A stretch of 30,572 nt of DNA, taken from the IMG/VR virus record IMGVR_UViG_3300044732_000912, positions 1 through 30,572 of that record, one strand, 5' to 3'. Below the pieces are notes generated by a model, which saw only the letters and a program-made list of their open reading frames with translations, was not told where the DNA came from and did not search any database. Positions 2,877-27,174 of this stretch are shown here, one piece after another. A program made the translations under genes and the position numbers. This DNA is from a virus. The stretch's first letter is position 1, and each line of letters begins with the position of its first letter.

Positions 2877-3742
2877 AGCTTCTCCAGGCGGCCACGCGCG
2901 CCGAGGGCGCCCTCTTCGGCGACCTGATCCAGGCATACATGCAACGCGACAAGTTCCGGCGCCGCCCCGTCGGCGATAAGCTCATCTATTTTCTGCGGCA
3001 GCTCGATCGCGGCATCGGCAGCCTGTCAGTGAAGGAGCTGACGGAGCCCGTCCTGGCCGACTACATCGAGCGCCAGGAATGGGCTCAGGGAACCGCCAGG
3101 CGCGCGATCTCGACCATCCGCGCCGTGCAGGCATATGCCGTGAAGGCCCGCCTGGTGAAGGCCGAGGACGTGCCCTATGTCGAGCGGCCACCGGCAGCCC
3201 CTCCCCGCGACAAGTGGCTGAACGAGGACGAGGAGGCGCAGCTCTACGCTCTCGCCCTGGGCTTCTCGATGGGCCGCGACCGCCTGAACCGCGTCACGCT
3301 GTTCACCTGCATTGCCCTCGACACCGGCCAGCGCAAGAACGCGATCCTGAATCTCACTTGGAGCAAGGTGGACCTCGAATCGGGCATCATCGACTTCCGG
3401 CTCGGCAAGGGTGCTGCGAACAAGCGGCAATCCATCGTGCCGATCTCCCGGCGCCTGCGGCCACTCCTCGAGCGGGCCTACCGGGAGCGTGAGAGCGACT
3501 TCGTGCTGTTCACGAATCGCGAGATTCATGCGCAATACGATGCCTTCGTCGCCTCGCGCGGCTTCGAAGGAATGAACCCCCACAGCCTCCGTCACACCTG
3601 GGCCACCCTCAACCTCCGCGCCGGGTCAACGATCTGGGAGGTCGCCGGTGTCCTGGGGAACAGCCCGCAGCTCGTCGCCGCGGTTTATGGGCATCATGCT
3701 CCCGACCATCTGCGTGGCGTCATCGACCGGCGCTTCGAATAG
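2726..3742 (+). CDS. int: tyrosine integrase (338 aa)
   Basis: The ATG at 2726 is preceded by GAGGAA at 2714-2719. An N-terminal arm-binding-like segment (GRWEVRYSEKLPNGTYRSRS, residues 11-30) is followed by a SAM-like core-binding domain (about 60-145) and a catalytic domain (160-338). Visible catalytic residues are R203 (DTGQRKNAILNLTW), probable K233, H286-S-L-R289-H (PHSLRHTWATL) and Y321 (AAVYGHH). The position usually held by His or Trp after LG is Asn312 (VLGNSPQ), a conservative but notable change. It catalyses integration between attP and the host attB site, with the overlapping excisionase-like protein probably needed for excision. A perfect hairpin terminator follows 20 nt after the stop. 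The family call is firm. Confidence 0.93.
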   Translation: MQTKLELSRTGRWEVRYSEKLPNGTYRSRSISTRQTDRSEAERWQKAFEVELLQAATRAEGALFGDLIQAYMQRDKFRRRPVGDKLIYFLRQLDRGIGSLSVKELTEPVLADYIERQEWAQGTARRAISTIRAVQAYAVKARLVKAEDVPYVERPPAAPPRDKWLNEDEEAQLYALALGFSMGRDRLNRVTLFTCIALDTGQRKNAILNLTWSKVDLESGIIDFRLGKGAANKRQSIVPISRRLRPLLERAYRERESDFVLFTNREIHAQYDAFVASRGFEGMNPHSLRHTWATLNLRAGSTIWEVAGVLGNSPQLVAAVYGHHAPDHLRGVIDRRFE

Positions 3743-3762
3743 GGGAGCGCACCAGGGCAATA

Positions 3763-3797
3763 GAAAACGGCGGCCAGGTTACCCCGCCGCCGTTTTC
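3763..3797 (+). terminator. rho-independent terminator after integrase (possibly bidirectional)
   Basis: A perfect 12-bp stem, GAAAACGGCGGC (3763-3774) with GCCGCCGTTTTC (3786-3797), has an 11-nt loop. The outer A4/T4 tracts give U-rich 3' ends in both directions. It lies 20 nt after the integrase stop and also ends any leftward transcript crossing the repeat array. Confidence 0.85.
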
Positions 3798-3805
3798 GTT
3801 CCCCG

Positions 3806-4210
3806 CCGCGCCTTGCCATGCCAGGCCGCGCCCCGCCATGCCCCGCCGGGATGCCCTTGCCGCGCCTTGCCACGCCCTACCTAGCCCAGCCTAACCGCGC
3901 CGTGAAACCCACGCCGTGCCATGCCTTGCCTAGCCATGCCGTGCCTTGCCATGCCTCGCCTTGAAACCCTCGCCATGCCAGGCCGCGCCTAGCCTTGCCT
4001 CGCCACGCCTCACCGCGCCGCGAAACCCATGCCTCGCCATACCACGCCTCGCCGTGCCTGGCCTAACCGCGCCAAACCACGAAACCCATGCCAGGCCTCG
4101 CCATACCACGCCTCGCCTTGCCTTGCCTTGCCGGGCCGCGAAACCCATGCCTCGCCTTGCCATGCCGCACCTTGCCGAGCCTAGCCACGCCTTGCCAGGC
4201 CACGAAACCC
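3806..4210. repeat. pentamer (GCCNN) array with a 59-nt super-period marked by GAAACCC boxes
   Basis: About 400 bp consist of 5-nt units with invariant CC, mostly preceded by G, and two varying bases (GCCTT, GCCAT, GCCAG, GCCGC and similar). The box GAAACCC occurs at 3904, 3963, 4022, 4081, 4140 and 4204, that is, at intervals of 59, 59, 59, 59 and 64 nt. The last four boxes extend to GAAACCCATG. Each interval equals a whole number of pentamers minus one base, so the pentamer phase slips by one at each box. The array fills the convergent gap between the integrase terminator and the end of the 201-aa gene. Open frames run through it only because the repeats have few stops; no ribosome-binding site or credible protein is seen. 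Function unknown. Confidence 0.9.
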
Positions 4211-4215
4211 ATGGC

Positions 4216-4243
4216 GCCGGTGGCAGGGGATCCCGCCACCGGC
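4216..4243 (-). terminator. hairpin at the end of the leftward 201-aa gene
   Basis: GCCGGTGGC (4216-4224) and GCCACCGGC (4235-4243) form a perfect 9-bp stem with a 10-nt loop, 7 nt beyond the stop of the 201-aa gene. There is no U-tract on the leftward side, so it may be a weak terminator or a 3'-end stabiliser, and it marks the edge of the pentamer array. Confidence 0.5.
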
Positions 4244-4250
4244 TGCATCG

Positions 4251-4856
4251 TCAGGCCGCCTTAGCGACCGGCGCCTTCATCTCTTCGAAGGACAGAAGGT
4301 AGCCGCGGCCATAGCGCGGGCGCCAATCGCCGAGGCCCTTCAGGTTGAGGCAGTCCTCGATCCAACGCTTGAGCTGCGCGGGGTTCGCGATCTCGGTGGC
4401 CAGGCTCACGGTGAACTTAGCCTCGACGTTCGAGAACATCGGGCGGGTACGCATGATGCGCGCCTGGCCGACGCGAACCGGCACAACCAGCCGGTGGTCG
4501 TCGCTGACCTTCAGCTCATCGAGGGACAGCGGGCCGCCGTCATACGTGATGATAGCGTCATCCTCGACGATCACCGAGCTGAGGCACTGCTTGCCCTCCT
4601 TCGCGATCTTTGCACCCTCGGCGATGGCAGCCTCGAAAATGCGGCCAGGGATAATCACCTGCTTCTTGCTGTCGAGGTAGAGGCCTGCCTCATACTCGAT
4701 GAGGGCGAGCTGCTCATGGTCAGCGTCGGTCTTCTTCCGCTTCGATGAGATCTCCTTCATCGCCTTCGCATAAGGGTCCAGCGGATCCGCAGACCGCGCG
4801 TTGTGCGAGAGGAACTTGTCGATGTGGATGCTGATGGTGTACTGCTTCATGCTCAT
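4251..4856 (-). CDS. unrecognised early phage protein (201 aa) ending in a GLGDWRPRYGRGY motif
   Basis: The ATG at 4856 has AAGGAG nine bases upstream; a second ATG two codons later is possible. The protein is soluble and mixed alpha/beta. An N-terminal strand (MKQYTISIHID) leads to a charged helical region (AKAMKEISSKRKKTDADHEQ, residues about 29-48), then a segment with IIPGRIFEAAIAEGAKIAKE, and several strands (VIVEDDAIITYDGG, HRLVVPVRVGQARIMRTRP). The C-terminal GLGDWRPRYGRGYLLSFEEM is glycine-rich, loosely like the G-rich loops of RAMP/Cas7-fold RNA-binding proteins; that is only a resemblance. It follows the HNH gene by 18 nt in one leftward unit that is probably controlled by the RHH protein. 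Function unknown. Confidence 0.7.
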   Translation of the reverse strand: MSMKQYTISIHIDKFLSHNARSADPLDPYAKAMKEISSKRKKTDADHEQLALIEYEAGLYLDSKKQVIIPGRIFEAAIAEGAKIAKEGKQCLSSVIVEDDAIITYDGGPLSLDELKVSDDHRLVVPVRVGQARIMRTRPMFSNVEAKFTVSLATEIANPAQLKRWIEDCLNLKGLGDWRPRYGRGYLLSFEEMKAPVAKAA

Positions 4857-4874
4857 GGCTGATTGCTCCTTGCG

Positions 4875-5330
4875 TTAGCCGTGTTTACGTGAGGTGGGGC
4901 GGAAGGCTGGTCTTGCTGGCTCAGTCTTCTGCTCCACTTTCACCTCGATGCGCCGCGCCTGCGGCACATATCTCGGCGCTTCTTCAGCGGTCGAGAATTC
5001 TACAGTGATGCTCATGTCACCGGCGGCATACCGCTTCGTGCGGATCCGCGAGGTGATGGCATCATGGCAGGGCTCGCAGAGGAGGATCACGTCCTCGATG
5101 CGCTCCTGGCCGAATTGATTGTAGAGCCGGTGATGCAGCTCGAAACGGAACGGGCCACCCTCAACCTCAGCGCAGGTGCCGCAATAGACCTTGCCATCGG
5201 CGGTCTGAAGCGCGCGGCGCTGTTCGCGAAGATCTGCCCAGTTCTCGGGATTGCGCTGCTGGTTGGCCGGGCGCTTGATCACGCTACCGTCCACCACATT
5301 CACCCGATTGATCCGTCCCTTGGTCTTCAT
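4875..5330 (-). CDS. HNH endonuclease-like protein (151 aa)
   Basis: The ATG at 5330 is preceded by AAGGAG. The central part carries an HNH/zinc pattern: YCGTC (C-x2-C, near residue 50), FELHHRLYNQFGQERIEDVI with the catalytic His pair, then LLCEPCHDAIT (C-x2-C-H). Basic N- and C-terminal tails flank it, and the last 40 residues (QKTEPARPAFRPTSRKHG) look disordered. HNH proteins cut or nick DNA; in phages they act in packaging, recombination or as homing enzymes. Here the gene is early-region, away from the terminase, and paired with a 201-aa unknown protein, so a packaging role is less likely. The two TATCC inverted repeats upstream suggest control by the divergently encoded RHH protein. Confidence 0.75.
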   Translation of the reverse strand: MKTKGRINRVNVVDGSVIKRPANQQRNPENWADLREQRRALQTADGKVYCGTCAEVEGGPFRFELHHRLYNQFGQERIEDVILLCEPCHDAITSRIRTKRYAAGDMSITVEFSTAEEAPRYVPQARRIEVKVEQKTEPARPAFRPTSRKHG

Positions 5331-5347
5331 GTCGGCTCCTTGATGTG

Positions 5348-5373
5348 TGGATAGTTATGCGGCTTCCTATCCA
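5348..5373. promoter_or_regulatory. operator-like inverted repeat over the HNH-gene promoter
   Basis: TGGATAG (5348-5354) and CTATCCA (5367-5373) form a perfect 7-bp dyad. On the reverse strand TTGACT (5380-5375) and CATAAC (5359-5354), spaced by 15 bp, form a possible promoter for the HNH gene that this dyad overlaps. Its half-site TATCC is shared with a second dyad 41 bp away. Confidence 0.5.
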
Positions 5374-5388
5374 AAGTCAATACCCCGC

Positions 5389-5414
5389 CGGATAAAAATG
5401 TTGATTTCTATCCG
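5389..5414. promoter_or_regulatory. operator-like inverted repeat over the RHH-gene promoter
   Basis: CGGATA (5389-5394) and TATCCG (5409-5414) form a perfect 6-bp dyad. On the forward strand TTGATT (5401-5406) and TATTTT (5423-5428), spaced by 16 bp, could be the RHH-gene promoter, with its -35 inside this dyad. The shared TATCC half-sites suggest that one dimeric repressor, most simply the RHH protein, controls both divergent units. Confidence 0.5.
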
Positions 5415-5450
5415 TGGACCTATATTTTGCTGACATCCAAGGAGATCGCG

Positions 5451-5639
5451 ATGGGAAGACCGCCACTACCAAAGGCTCACAAGCGCGCACACAAGCTGCA
5501 CATCATGCTGACTGAATCGGAAATCGAGCAGGTGCGTAAGGCCACTATTCGCGGGGGCTTTGCGACGATGTCGGATTACATTCGCAGTGCGGTGAAGGCC
5601 GCTGTTGAAACGGAGACGAAGATTGCCTCGGAAGACTGA
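5451..5639 (+). CDS. ribbon-helix-helix DNA-binding protein (62 aa)
   Basis: The ATG at 5451 has AAGGAG six bases upstream, so it is preferred to an in-frame ATG at 5427. A basic N-terminus (GRPPLPKAHKRAHK) leads into the strand KLHIMLTESEIEQV and two helices (EQVRKATIRGGF and TMSDYIRSAVKAAVE), the layout of a MetJ/Arc-type ribbon-helix-helix dimer. Such proteins bind short inverted repeats and usually repress their own gene. Two TATCC inverted repeats lie immediately upstream. Its stop lies 17 nt inside the next gene, so the two are co-translated. Probably a local repressor of the HNH/201-aa unit and of itself (inference). Confidence 0.8.
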   Translation: MGRPPLPKAHKRAHKLHIMLTESEIEQVRKATIRGGFATMSDYIRSAVKAAVETETKIASED

Positions 5640-5931
5640 ACTCATCACCAAAACAGACCTCAAGCGCGCCTACGTGAAGCAGGGCCTCACGCTCGAGGAG
5701 ACGGCAGTTGCGCTCGGCGTATCGATGCCCTCGGTGGTGCGCTACATGGCGCGCTATAACATCCCCAGGCGCCACCAGGGGGCTCGCACGTCCCAGGAAA
5801 TTGCTGCCATCACGGAACGCGATCGCAAGGTCGTCGAGCTGCATGCTGAGGGCTGGAGCATGATCAAGATTGCCGACCGTTTCGGCATCTCCAGGCAGCG
5901 CGTTCACACCATCATCAAGCGCAACGGCTGA
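5623..5931 (+). CDS. small protein with two helix-turn-helix motifs (102 aa)
   Basis: The best start is the TTG at 5623, which has GGAG seven bases upstream; another TTG at 5605 would add six residues. Two similar HTH segments are visible: LTLEETAVALGVSMPSVVRY (about residues 22-41) and WSMIKIADRFGISRQRVHTI (about 79-98), joined by a linker with NIPRRHQGARTSQEI. Each resembles a sigma70 region 4 or resolvase-type HTH. The protein could contact two DNA half-sites alone. It is co-transcribed with the RHH gene and ends before a strong terminator. Regulator is the default reading; a small-terminase-like role cannot be excluded but has no direct support. Confidence 0.7.
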   Translation: MPRKTELITKTDLKRAYVKQGLTLEETAVALGVSMPSVVRYMARYNIPRRHQGARTSQEIAAITERDRKVVELHAEGWSMIKIADRFGISRQRVHTIIKRNG

Positions 5932-20429: not shown

Positions 20430-21500
20430 TCAAGGAGAGCGATGCCTCGCCCGATCGAGCCCCTGCATTGCTGCTTCCATGAGGCTCTTCGGAGCGGCGA
20501 CTGCGCTCGGGTTGCTGGGCCTCTGGATCCCTGAAGGGTTCATCTGCGTTGGAGCGCGGGACGGCCTGGATGCCCTGACAGCCGCGTCAGCCCTGCGATA
20601 GGCCTCCTGGGCAACTGCCACACAATCCTGCGGCGACTGAGGGTCACCGTATTCCGCCCTGATGCTCGCGACATATGCCTTCGCGACATCCAGTTTGCGG
20701 GCATAATCCGGGTCGGACTGTCTGACGGTCTGTTCCCAGGCAGCAACTGCCGAACGGTTCGCTTGACGGGCATTTTCCTCTTGCTGGGAGGCCTCCGCCT
20801 CAGCCTGGCGCTCGAGGCGCTGCTGGGCGTGGCCGAGGTCGTAACGCTGCTTCGTGATGCCGACAGCAACGTCCGGTGCCACCCTGCCCTGCCTTACCTG
20901 CTCTTGAAGATCAGGGGGAAGGGCTCGTCCCGTGTACTCCATCGCCAATTGGACGAAGGGAGACAACTGCTCGAGGAACGTCTCGTAATCCCCCTTGCGG
21001 AGGGTCGCGAGAGCCTGCAGTCCGAATGCGAGGTCCTCAGCGGACAGCTCATTCTCCTGCATGTATGCCCTGAAGGGCTCGACCTCCCTGACCTGGTCCC
21101 GGTAGCTGTTCCGCTCCGAAAGGAGGGACTTGATCCGCTGCTGGGTCGAGGGCGTGTAGGTCTTGATCTCTTCAGGCGAAAAGTCCTGCGGCGCGTCCTG
21201 GTTCGGAGCCTTCTGAGCATCCTGCTCGGATCGAGCCTGCACCGATCCATCGGTGGGCGCTGCTTCCGTCTTCGGCTCGATGGCCTTCTTGACGGCTGCA
21301 AGCAAACCAGCCTTGGGGTCGGTTTCTCCGGGTGACGAAGCCGGGTTAGCGTCGGAAGCGGGAGACGAGGCCGCAGGAGCGTCGGAGGCGGGTGACGAAG
21401 CCGCAGGAGCGTCATGGCTAGGAGATGGCTGAGATGTTGATGGTTCCACCGGCGACGAGGTGGTGGGATTTTGAACGTCTAAGTTTCCATCTATCGACAT
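20430..21500 (-). CDS. capsid scaffolding protein (356 aa)
   Basis: The protein is acidic at the N-terminus, rich in Ser/Pro/Ala/Gln and predominantly helical afterwards, as scaffolds are. Residues about 25-57 carry imperfect DAPAASSPAS-type repeats, encoded by a 30-bp tandem repeat. A segment with FSPEEIKTYTPSTQQRIKSL starts the helical core, which contains YMQENELSAEDLAFGLQALA and a Gln/Glu-rich coiled coil (QRLERQAEAEASQQEENARQ). The C-terminus is basic (DRARHRSP), typical of the capsid-binding end. It lies between portal and capsid genes. Two adjacent hairpins lie directly before its start, and the second contains part of the Shine-Dalgarno sequence. Confidence 0.85.
   Translation of the reverse strand: MSIDGNLDVQNPTTSSPVEPSTSQPSPSHDAPAASSPASDAPAASSPASDANPASSPGETDPKAGLLAAVKKAIEPKTEAAPTDGSVQARSEQDAQKAPNQDAPQDFSPEEIKTYTPSTQQRIKSLLSERNSYRDQVREVEPFRAYMQENELSAEDLAFGLQALATLRKGDYETFLEQLSPFVQLAMEYTGRALPPDLQEQVRQGRVAPDVAVGITKQRYDLGHAQQRLERQAEAEASQQEENARQANRSAVAAWEQTVRQSDPDYARKLDVAKAYVASIRAEYGDPQSPQDCVAVAQEAYRRADAAVRASRPSRAPTQMNPSGIQRPSNPSAVAAPKSLMEAAMQGLDRARHRSP
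21349..21408. repeat. 30-bp tandem repeat in the scaffold gene
   Basis: Two copies of a 30-bp unit starting GCGTCGGA (21349-21378 and 21379-21408) differ at four positions, with a diverged third copy on the left side (from about 21321). They encode the Ala/Ser/Pro/Asp-rich repeats at the scaffold N-terminus and keep the frame. Confidence 0.8.
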
Positions 21501-26775: not shown

Positions 26776-27174
26776 TTAAGTGGCCGGGGTTTCGGCGGGG
26801 GCCTCGGCGGGGGCCTCGGCGGGGGCCTCGGCTGGGGCTTCGGTCGTCGTGGTCGAACCGTCAGTCGTCGTGGTCGAACCGTCAGTCGTCGGAGCGGCCT
26901 GCGGCGGCACTGCCATAGGCGGCGTGTACGGCGCGGGGAACTTGGCGAACACCATGCCCATCTTCGCGGAGAAGGACGCAAGAGCGGTAAGATCGTCGTT
27001 CAGAGCCTCACGCTGGGCCGTCATGATGGCGATCTGGTTGTCGAGGTAATAGGCGTTGCCATTCACCTTGTTCGCGTGATCCACCACTGCTTCAAGAATG
27101 AACGTGACTTCTTCCGCAGTGAAACCAGCGTTGCCGAGAGTGTCGGTAAAGAGCTTGTCGTTTTCCATTTCCAT
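26776..27174 (-). CDS. late protein with repeat-rich Thr/Ala/Pro tail (132 aa)
   Basis: Two ATGs (27174 and 27168) are possible; AAGGA is better spaced to the second. Residues 1-80 are helical (FTAEEVTFILEAVVDHANKV, YYLDNQIAIMTAQREALNDD, LTALASFSAKMGMVFAKFPA). From residue 95 the chain is low-complexity: a repeated Thr-rich TTDGSTTT unit, then EAPA repeated four times. The tail is encoded by a 21-bp unit repeated twice and a 12-bp unit repeated five times. No family is recognised. It lies between tail and lysis genes, so a minor tail or lysis accessory protein is possible. The repeats invite length variation without frameshift. Confidence 0.65.
   Translation of the reverse strand: MEMENDKLFTDTLGNAGFTAEEVTFILEAVVDHANKVNGNAYYLDNQIAIMTAQREALNDDLTALASFSAKMGMVFAKFPAPYTPPMAVPPQAAPTTDGSTTTTDGSTTTTEAPAEAPAEAPAEAPAETPAT
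26786..26884. repeat. in-frame micro- and minisatellite repeats (12-bp x5 and 21-bp x2)
   Basis: Five 12-bp units (26786-26845; GGGGCCTCGGCG and variants) are followed by two identical 21-bp units starting GTCGTCGTGG (26843-26863 and 26864-26884) plus a partial third. All unit lengths are multiples of three, so gain or loss changes only the tail length of the 132-aa protein. Confidence 0.85.

Follow-up and report, generated by a model that had tools for sequence, protein, structure and literature searches.

VIPR is a CRISPR-like system of RNA-guided, noncontiguous DNA recognition that phages appear to use against their rivals, as described in a recent preprint (PMC13142463, 2026). It is defined there by a RAMP protein and by vrRNAs consisting of 9–16 YNNGG (GGY-NN) repeats, in which the NN dinucleotide is hypervariable. 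The Vipr–vrRNA complex of Escherichia phage SUSP1 has been reported to recognize double-stranded DNA and to act as a repressor. Among the seven VIPR types distinguished, types III–V have predicted enzymes, for instance nucleases or helicases, and the nuclease-bearing types have been linked to destruction of the target. The architecture of the arrays differs among types, and staggered arrays with overlapping vrRNAs are mentioned in the same text. The system has been known for only months, and it has been proposed as an ancestor of CRISPR RAMP systems.

The window analysed here is the whole 30,572-nucleotide stretch of viral DNA (IMG/VR record IMGVR_UViG_3300044732_000912), in which an integrase, a terminase and other phage genes are present. 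A pentamer array near the integrase had been assigned in the initial annotation to no established family, a view superseded by the very recent description of VIPR, which the array fits. With high confidence, the array belongs to a phage-borne VIPR system and comprises seven guides whose expression, processing and binding are predicted. This assignment follows from the grammar of the array, from the neighbouring vipr gene, whose product matches PDB 36pp_D and has a RAMP fold, and from the conserved HNH gene. The locus encodes a single RRM-type RAMP protein of ~20 kDa that is homologous to SUSP1 Vipr; its noncoding repeats combine an invariant GGY with a hypervariable NN at 10–12 NN per guide, compared with the 9–16 units described; and the array flanks vipr in a phage genome.

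Organization of the array

The repeat unit had been described as GCCNN. The pentamer array itself stands, although the plus-strand unit is RCCNN and the informative strand is the minus strand, on which the NN-GGY joints between positions 4203 and 3803 are perfect in 69 of 69 cases (61 GGC and 8 GGT). The positions and steps given earlier for six GAAACCC boxes, read as GGGTTTC on the minus strand, are exact (3904, 3963, 4022, 4081, 4140 and 4204; steps of 59, 59, 59, 59 and 64), but a seventh, variant box, GGGCATC at 3850–3856, had been overlooked and adds a step of 54. The seven 7-nt boxes divide the array into seven tracts of 12, 11, 11, 11, 11, 10 and 10 NN, altogether 76 dinucleotides, beginning 40 nt past the vipr stop. 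The features of the array, all on the minus strand, are as follows.

4204–4210, minus: box 1, GGGTTTC
4147–4203, minus: guide 1, 12 NN (GT CT AA GT TA TC AA GC AT AA GA AT)
4140–4146, minus: box 2, GGGTTTC
4088–4139, minus: guide 2, 11 NN (GC CC AA AA AA GA GT AT GA CT AT); candidate target, a P22-like portal motif
4081–4087, minus: box 3, GGGTTTC
4029–4080, minus: guide 3, 11 NN (GT TT GC TA CA AC GA GT AT GA AT); candidate target, the motif VFAYHTDVI of phage SNF2-type DNA helicases
4022–4028, minus: box 4, GGGTTTC
3970–4021, minus: guide 4, 11 NN (GC GC GA GT GA AA TA GC CT AT GA); possible tail-fibre target
3963–3969, minus: box 5, GGGTTTC
3911–3962, minus: guide 5, 11 NN (AA GA AT AA AC AT TA AA AT AC GT)
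3904–3910, minus: box 6, GGGTTTC
3857–3903, minus: guide 6, 10 NN (AC GC TA TG TA AG GT AA GC AA)
3850–3856, minus: box 7, variant GGGCATC; the arrays of most relatives likewise have a variant as their last box (GGACATC or similar)
3803–3849, minus: guide 7, 10 NN (CC GG AT GG GC CT AT AA GC GG)

The rule that every step equals a multiple of five minus one, proposed on the basis of the first six boxes, holds for all three step lengths (54, 59 and 64), because each 7-nt box stands in the place of a 3-nt GGY and thus adds 4 nt. All 34 six-unit GGY-NN runs of the window lie within the array, and none was found in 100 dinucleotide-preserving shuffles. The first letter of NN is a purine in 60 of the 76 dinucleotides, where 0.50 is the background (p=4e-7), a bias that is expected for the first codon position. 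Guides 2 and 3 (4029–4139) have a common block, GA GT AT GA, including the same GGT position, which suggests that one was derived from the other by duplication or recombination. Elsewhere in the window, tandem repeats occur at 21329–21413 and 26792–26891 (30 bp; 12 and 21 bp) within ORFs of the structural region.

Two explanations that dispense with guides may be weighed against this grammar. The array could be a neutral microsatellite, expanded by strand slippage of a GC-rich pentamer, and both its tandem pentamers and the local duplication evident in the block common to guides 2 and 3 would agree with such an origin. Slippage, however, yields near-identical neighbours, whereas here NN varies freely beside an invariant GGY; the codon-like bias of NN contradicts it as well, and the boxes are conserved between phages whose Vipr proteins are 47–57 % identical. 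The earlier argument against simple slippage is borne out, and this origin is extremely improbable. Hardly any probability attaches, either, to the periodicity being that of a low-complexity coding ORF: an open frame does exist (3946–4302, plus strand, 118 aa), but a 5-nt period shifts the frame at each unit and the box shifts the phase again, while the ORF takes in just a portion of the array and runs into the end of vipr.

The vipr operon and its setting

The initial annotation had tied the array to the integrase terminator. The integrase does lie next to it, but the vipr gene immediately on the 5′ side of the array, on the minus strand, had been missed. HNH, vipr and the array have one orientation, and the following features, all on the minus strand, surround the array.

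4875–5330, minus: HNH endonuclease gene, candidate VIPR accessory (vap-like), from Pfam and PHROG matches and conserved linkage
4251–4856, minus: vipr gene, 201 aa, RAMP-fold protein and predicted guide-RNA binder, from homology and an AF2 model
4216–4243, minus: 12-bp RNA hairpin between the vipr stop and the array (-31.3 kcal/mol, z = -4.85)
3764–3796, minus: terminator-like hairpin common to the convergent integrase and VIPR operons (11-bp outer stem ending TTTT, z = -3.8)

The product of vipr matches the SUSP1 Vipr protein in the PDB (36pp_D) with E=8.2e-27 by phmmer and E=7.3e-48 in a profile search, and it matches phrog_4652 (E=2e-44); a Pfam search of the product gave no match. With the product of SUSP1 KT454805 28474–29061 it shares 36 % identity; that SUSP1 gene lies between NNGGT arrays in the same repeat scan, and its product is the sequence in PDB 36pp. 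An AlphaFold2 model (pLDDT 89) has as its top PDB folds the subunits of type III CRISPR Csm/Cmr complexes (RAMP/Cas7-type). The HNH gene matches PF01844 with E=7e-4, slightly under the curated Pfam cut-off, as well as PHROG HNH families. An HNH gene is found directly upstream of vipr in loci L001, L002, L003, L004, L016, L033, L039, L041, L042, L043 and L044, and the motif CxxC...HH...CxxCH is kept in nine aligned loci in that position.

Structure in the RNA was sought in the array and its flanks. Matches to Rfam were all below threshold, those at the 3764–3796 hairpin, which the strict terminator scan did not call, being far below gathering scores, and two folded array units showed no more structure than shuffles.

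Related arrays and turnover of guides

The initial annotation had supposed that such arrays may exist in related phages, and this proved correct. A repeat pattern built around GGNTTTC returned 13 viral contigs, one of them from the window's own virus, and most of the 12 others carry vipr together with an array of guides that have boxes on both sides. Relatives whose Vipr is 47–57 % identical to that of the window agree with it in gene order and in the kind of box. Boxes read GGATTTC/GGACATC in L002 (Vipr 57 % identical), GGTTCTC/GGTTTTC in L016 (47 %) and GGGTTTC/GGGTATC/GGACATC in a related viral clade (51–53 %). L016 is a contig of an uncultured Alsobacter MAG in which VIPR and its box array lie in an apparent prophage of this alphaproteobacterium. 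Random spacing or the absence of boxes in close relatives had been named as grounds for abandoning the array as a feature; instead, the boxes of the relatives each reset the pentamer phase. An assembly artefact, the other such ground, is unlikely because a separate IMG/VR record of 39,172 bp, which may be from the same sample, contains the same 9.9 kb at 100 % identity, and because arrays of this kind recur in related phages.

A DNA-level element close to the integrase, such as iterons, an attachment site, or a packaging or replication signal in which GGGTTTC would be a protein site at helical spacing, has in its favour the adjoining integrase, the regular 59-nt spacing and the conservation of the boxes. 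Nevertheless, it is very unlikely, since the array combines 69 of 69 GGY with hypervariable NN in a strand-specific grammar and adjoins a vipr gene, guide number, spacing and NN content vary among the arrays of the relatives, the NN strings, once decoded, give motifs of other phages in alignment with the codons (see below), and the window has no tRNA. Of the functions guessed at earlier, an RNA element agrees with the guide reading, whereas an attachment site or replication signal is contradicted by the neighbouring vipr and the strand-specific grammar.

Within the VIPR reading, the turnover of guides could be followed in one clade with five distinct arrays. The sample is small and its contigs are fragmentary; where comparable, their vipr genes are 92–100 % identical in nucleotide sequence. 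In the orders below, letters denote guide families and dots singletons, and the slash separates the variable block from the fixed block.

L033:.BH. / ECDA
L038: JBH. / ECDAK
L042/L044: BMNG / ECDAF
L043: ..OG / ECDAF
L045:.BOJ / ECDAK

In all five arrays, the four vipr-proximal guides are variable and recur at other positions, the ECDA four-guide core is fixed, and the box that joins the two blocks is always GGGTATC. This comparative evidence points to the gain, loss and shuffling of guides as box-bounded modules in this clade, so that the way in which VIPR acquires new guides becomes directly testable.

Several other forms were noted. In L003 and L004, a long-tailed sister form with an HNH neighbour as in the window, a conserved, structured-looking element of ~50 nt (AACCACCGATCGGC...CGGTGGGAT) separates the guides downstream of vipr; it is not in Rfam, and the L004 tails gave no family. 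The more distant relatives L005, L006 and L007 have only one or two vrRNA-like tracts, and in L007 a tract upstream of vipr ends in GTGGGTTCC, which is close to the GGGTTTC box. L040 has a long NNGGY array with boxes of the form GGYNTTC (1157–2086, minus), upstream of a gene (MMAKLETVNVRIEG...) that may encode another Vipr type.

Candidate targets

Guides were decoded by the 1-nt-skip rule given in the preprint (PMC13142463), in which one target base is skipped between successive NNs, and the scans of sequence collections took in guides 1, 2, 3, 4 and 6. Guide 3 matched 18 viral contigs, 12 of which encode one diverged family of SNF2-type helicases (PF00176/PF00271, phrog_62), with a best match of 20/22. 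These helicases form six lineages that are about 24–38 % identical, and all are matched at the same site, VFAYHTDVI, in codon phase 0. The helicase was absent from the 39 kb of the window virus that was examined. The helicase contigs have 37–56 % G+C, against 62 % in the window, and are for that reason probably not the actual rivals; when the other window guides were scanned in them, none rose above shuffled controls. In 385 genomes of the Alsobacter class, guide 3 stayed at control level (2 matches against 3).

Guide 2 has its matches in three lineages of P22-type portals, 22–38 % identical, at [AF]P[NK]KK[DE]VI[DE], while its single best match (21/22) lies in an unannotated ORF (L119). Its matches in a KKAKSTPKKKEVID cluster were set aside as low complexity. 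Guide 4 matches six similar contigs at 20/22. The site lies on the opposite strand of a tail-fibre-like ORF and is wobble-aligned; a tail fibre is a possible target, a weak indication given that several unrelated match families occur besides. Guide 1 had no match in viral contigs, and its one match among 269 genomes from the order to which the Alsobacter MAG belongs, with three mismatches in a chromosomal kinase-like gene, is about what chance would give. The matches of guide 6 in the collections were scattered and pointed to no target. Among cultured phages, those nearest in terminase sequence are Microcystis phage Mae-Yong1326-1 (51 %) and Rhizobium phage RHph_N65 (45 %); the parts of them that were searched gave no guide match, although RHph_N65 has an annotated SNF2 helicase.

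A further example comes from guide B, which belongs to the related clade and not to the window. In 14–16 of 19 contigs its match falls at the integrase motif HGFRSxFRDWAAEET, seen in the form FRDW[AV][AS]EET, with up to 25/26 positions agreeing. Its variants keep the residues seen at the motif: CG and AG both give Arg, and GC/GT and GC/TC correspond to the Ala/Val and Ala/Ser of the integrases. The matches of guides 2, 3 and B are codon-aligned, the skipped base being the wobble position. Codon phase alone is a weak argument, because codon-like guide patterns tend to match coding sequence in phase; the recurrence of one homologous site across diverged proteins is the stronger one.

The window guides have no perfect full-length target in the sequences scanned, the best being 21/22 for guide 2 and 20/22 for guides 3 and 4. 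A VIPR array that has decayed or fallen silent in the window phage would be in keeping with this absence of an exact current target, and with the result that no sigma-70-like promoter was found in 3650–5700. This alternative is nonetheless most unlikely, given that neither ORF is disrupted and every one of the 69 GGY is preserved, in contrast to L002, where GGY is often broken.

Proposed mechanism and significance

The intact VIPR locus may be envisaged to operate as follows. The array would be transcribed together with vipr as an NNGGY-repeat RNA, in which each tract of 10–12 units would constitute one vrRNA guide. The GGGUUUC box would be the end of a guide, that is, a shortened 3′ tail, or else a processing point, and would reset the pentamer phase. 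Vipr, as a RAMP protein, is predicted to coat the tract: it would touch GGY and display the NN dinucleotides, and these would pair with double-stranded DNA at conserved coding motifs of rival phages, skipping one base that corresponds to the wobble position. Once bound, the complex would either prevent transcription or, with the help of the HNH partner, bring about cutting.

A more specific and tentative proposal, somewhat less likely to be right than wrong, is that the window represents a VIPR clade associated with HNH, whose arrays are compact and CRISPR-like (a 7-nt box and a 47–57-nt guide). In this clade the boxes would be the points at which guides are exchanged as modules, and the guides would turn over mainly at the vipr-proximal end and be selected against conserved motifs (SNF2 helicase, P22-type portal and integrase). 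One guide could then cover many rivals despite synonymous changes, because widely conserved protein motifs would have been selected. If correct, this proposal would imply acquisition or exchange of guides without Cas1. The VIPR system as such is already known; the compact box architecture, the turnover of guide modules and the targeting of conserved motifs are possible novelties. The locus and its relatives add to it a compact form of array with an HNH partner, concrete candidates for natural targets and a comparison of guide turnover.

Comparison with known systems

The closest described system is the type II VIPR of SUSP1 (PMC13142463; PDB 36pp). As far as its published description goes, the two have in common a Vipr that is homologous over nearly its full length, GGY-NN repeats of 9–16 units, an intergenic array on the vipr strand and candidate targets in phage genes that are wobble-aligned with a 1-nt skip. 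The SUSP1 vrRNAs, however, are ~100 nt long, each with a structured 3′ tail, and lie on both sides of the genes, one upstream and three downstream, whereas the window packs seven guides head to tail; SUSP1 has a vap1 gene in place of which the window has the upstream HNH as partner. The invariable structured tail that each vrRNA has in the SUSP1 clade (type II) is lacking in the window, where only the 7-nt box stands between guides. Since array architecture varies by type in the preprint, this is taken as a difference of type and not as a loss of VIPR membership. The SUSP1 tail, too, starts where GGY turns into GGG, and on that ground the box may be read as a much shortened tail. The change of pentamer phase between the window guides also resembles the staggered VIPR arrays, as far as these are described in the preprint (PMC13142463); neighbouring vrRNAs of the window would overlap, because there is no room between guides for a full tail. 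With regard to VIPR arrays interspersed with hammerhead ribozymes, no Rfam hammerhead was found in 3600–5500.

Class 1 CRISPR-Cas systems (RAMP/Cas7) resemble the window locus in the RAMP fold of Vipr, in the combination of a short repeat with a variable guide and, judging from one related clade, in a variable proximal end beside a conserved core. They differ in that the window 'repeat' is only 7 nt long and its pentamer guides are read noncontiguously. The marks of CRISPR-Cas, namely contiguous spacers between identical repeats of the usual length, and cas genes, were not found: no cas gene was recognized in the stretches examined, a survey short of a systematic search, and PADLOC gave no match for Vipr or HNH.

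Cluster F mycobacteriophages such as Donkeykong offer a more distant parallel, with NNGGC tracts that are reset by a 7-nt box and adjoin a phrog_4652 protein. Their Vipr is far more divergent, the box is GGCAGGC, and no HNH neighbour was noted. In Mycobacterium phage Donkeykong (L012), the array occupies 2525–2814 and the Vipr-like gp49, annotated as hypothetical, 1764–2510; gp49 matches phrog_4652 with E=1.7e-58. Judged by sequence, the Donkeykong array and gp49 together are an unannotated, divergent VIPR.
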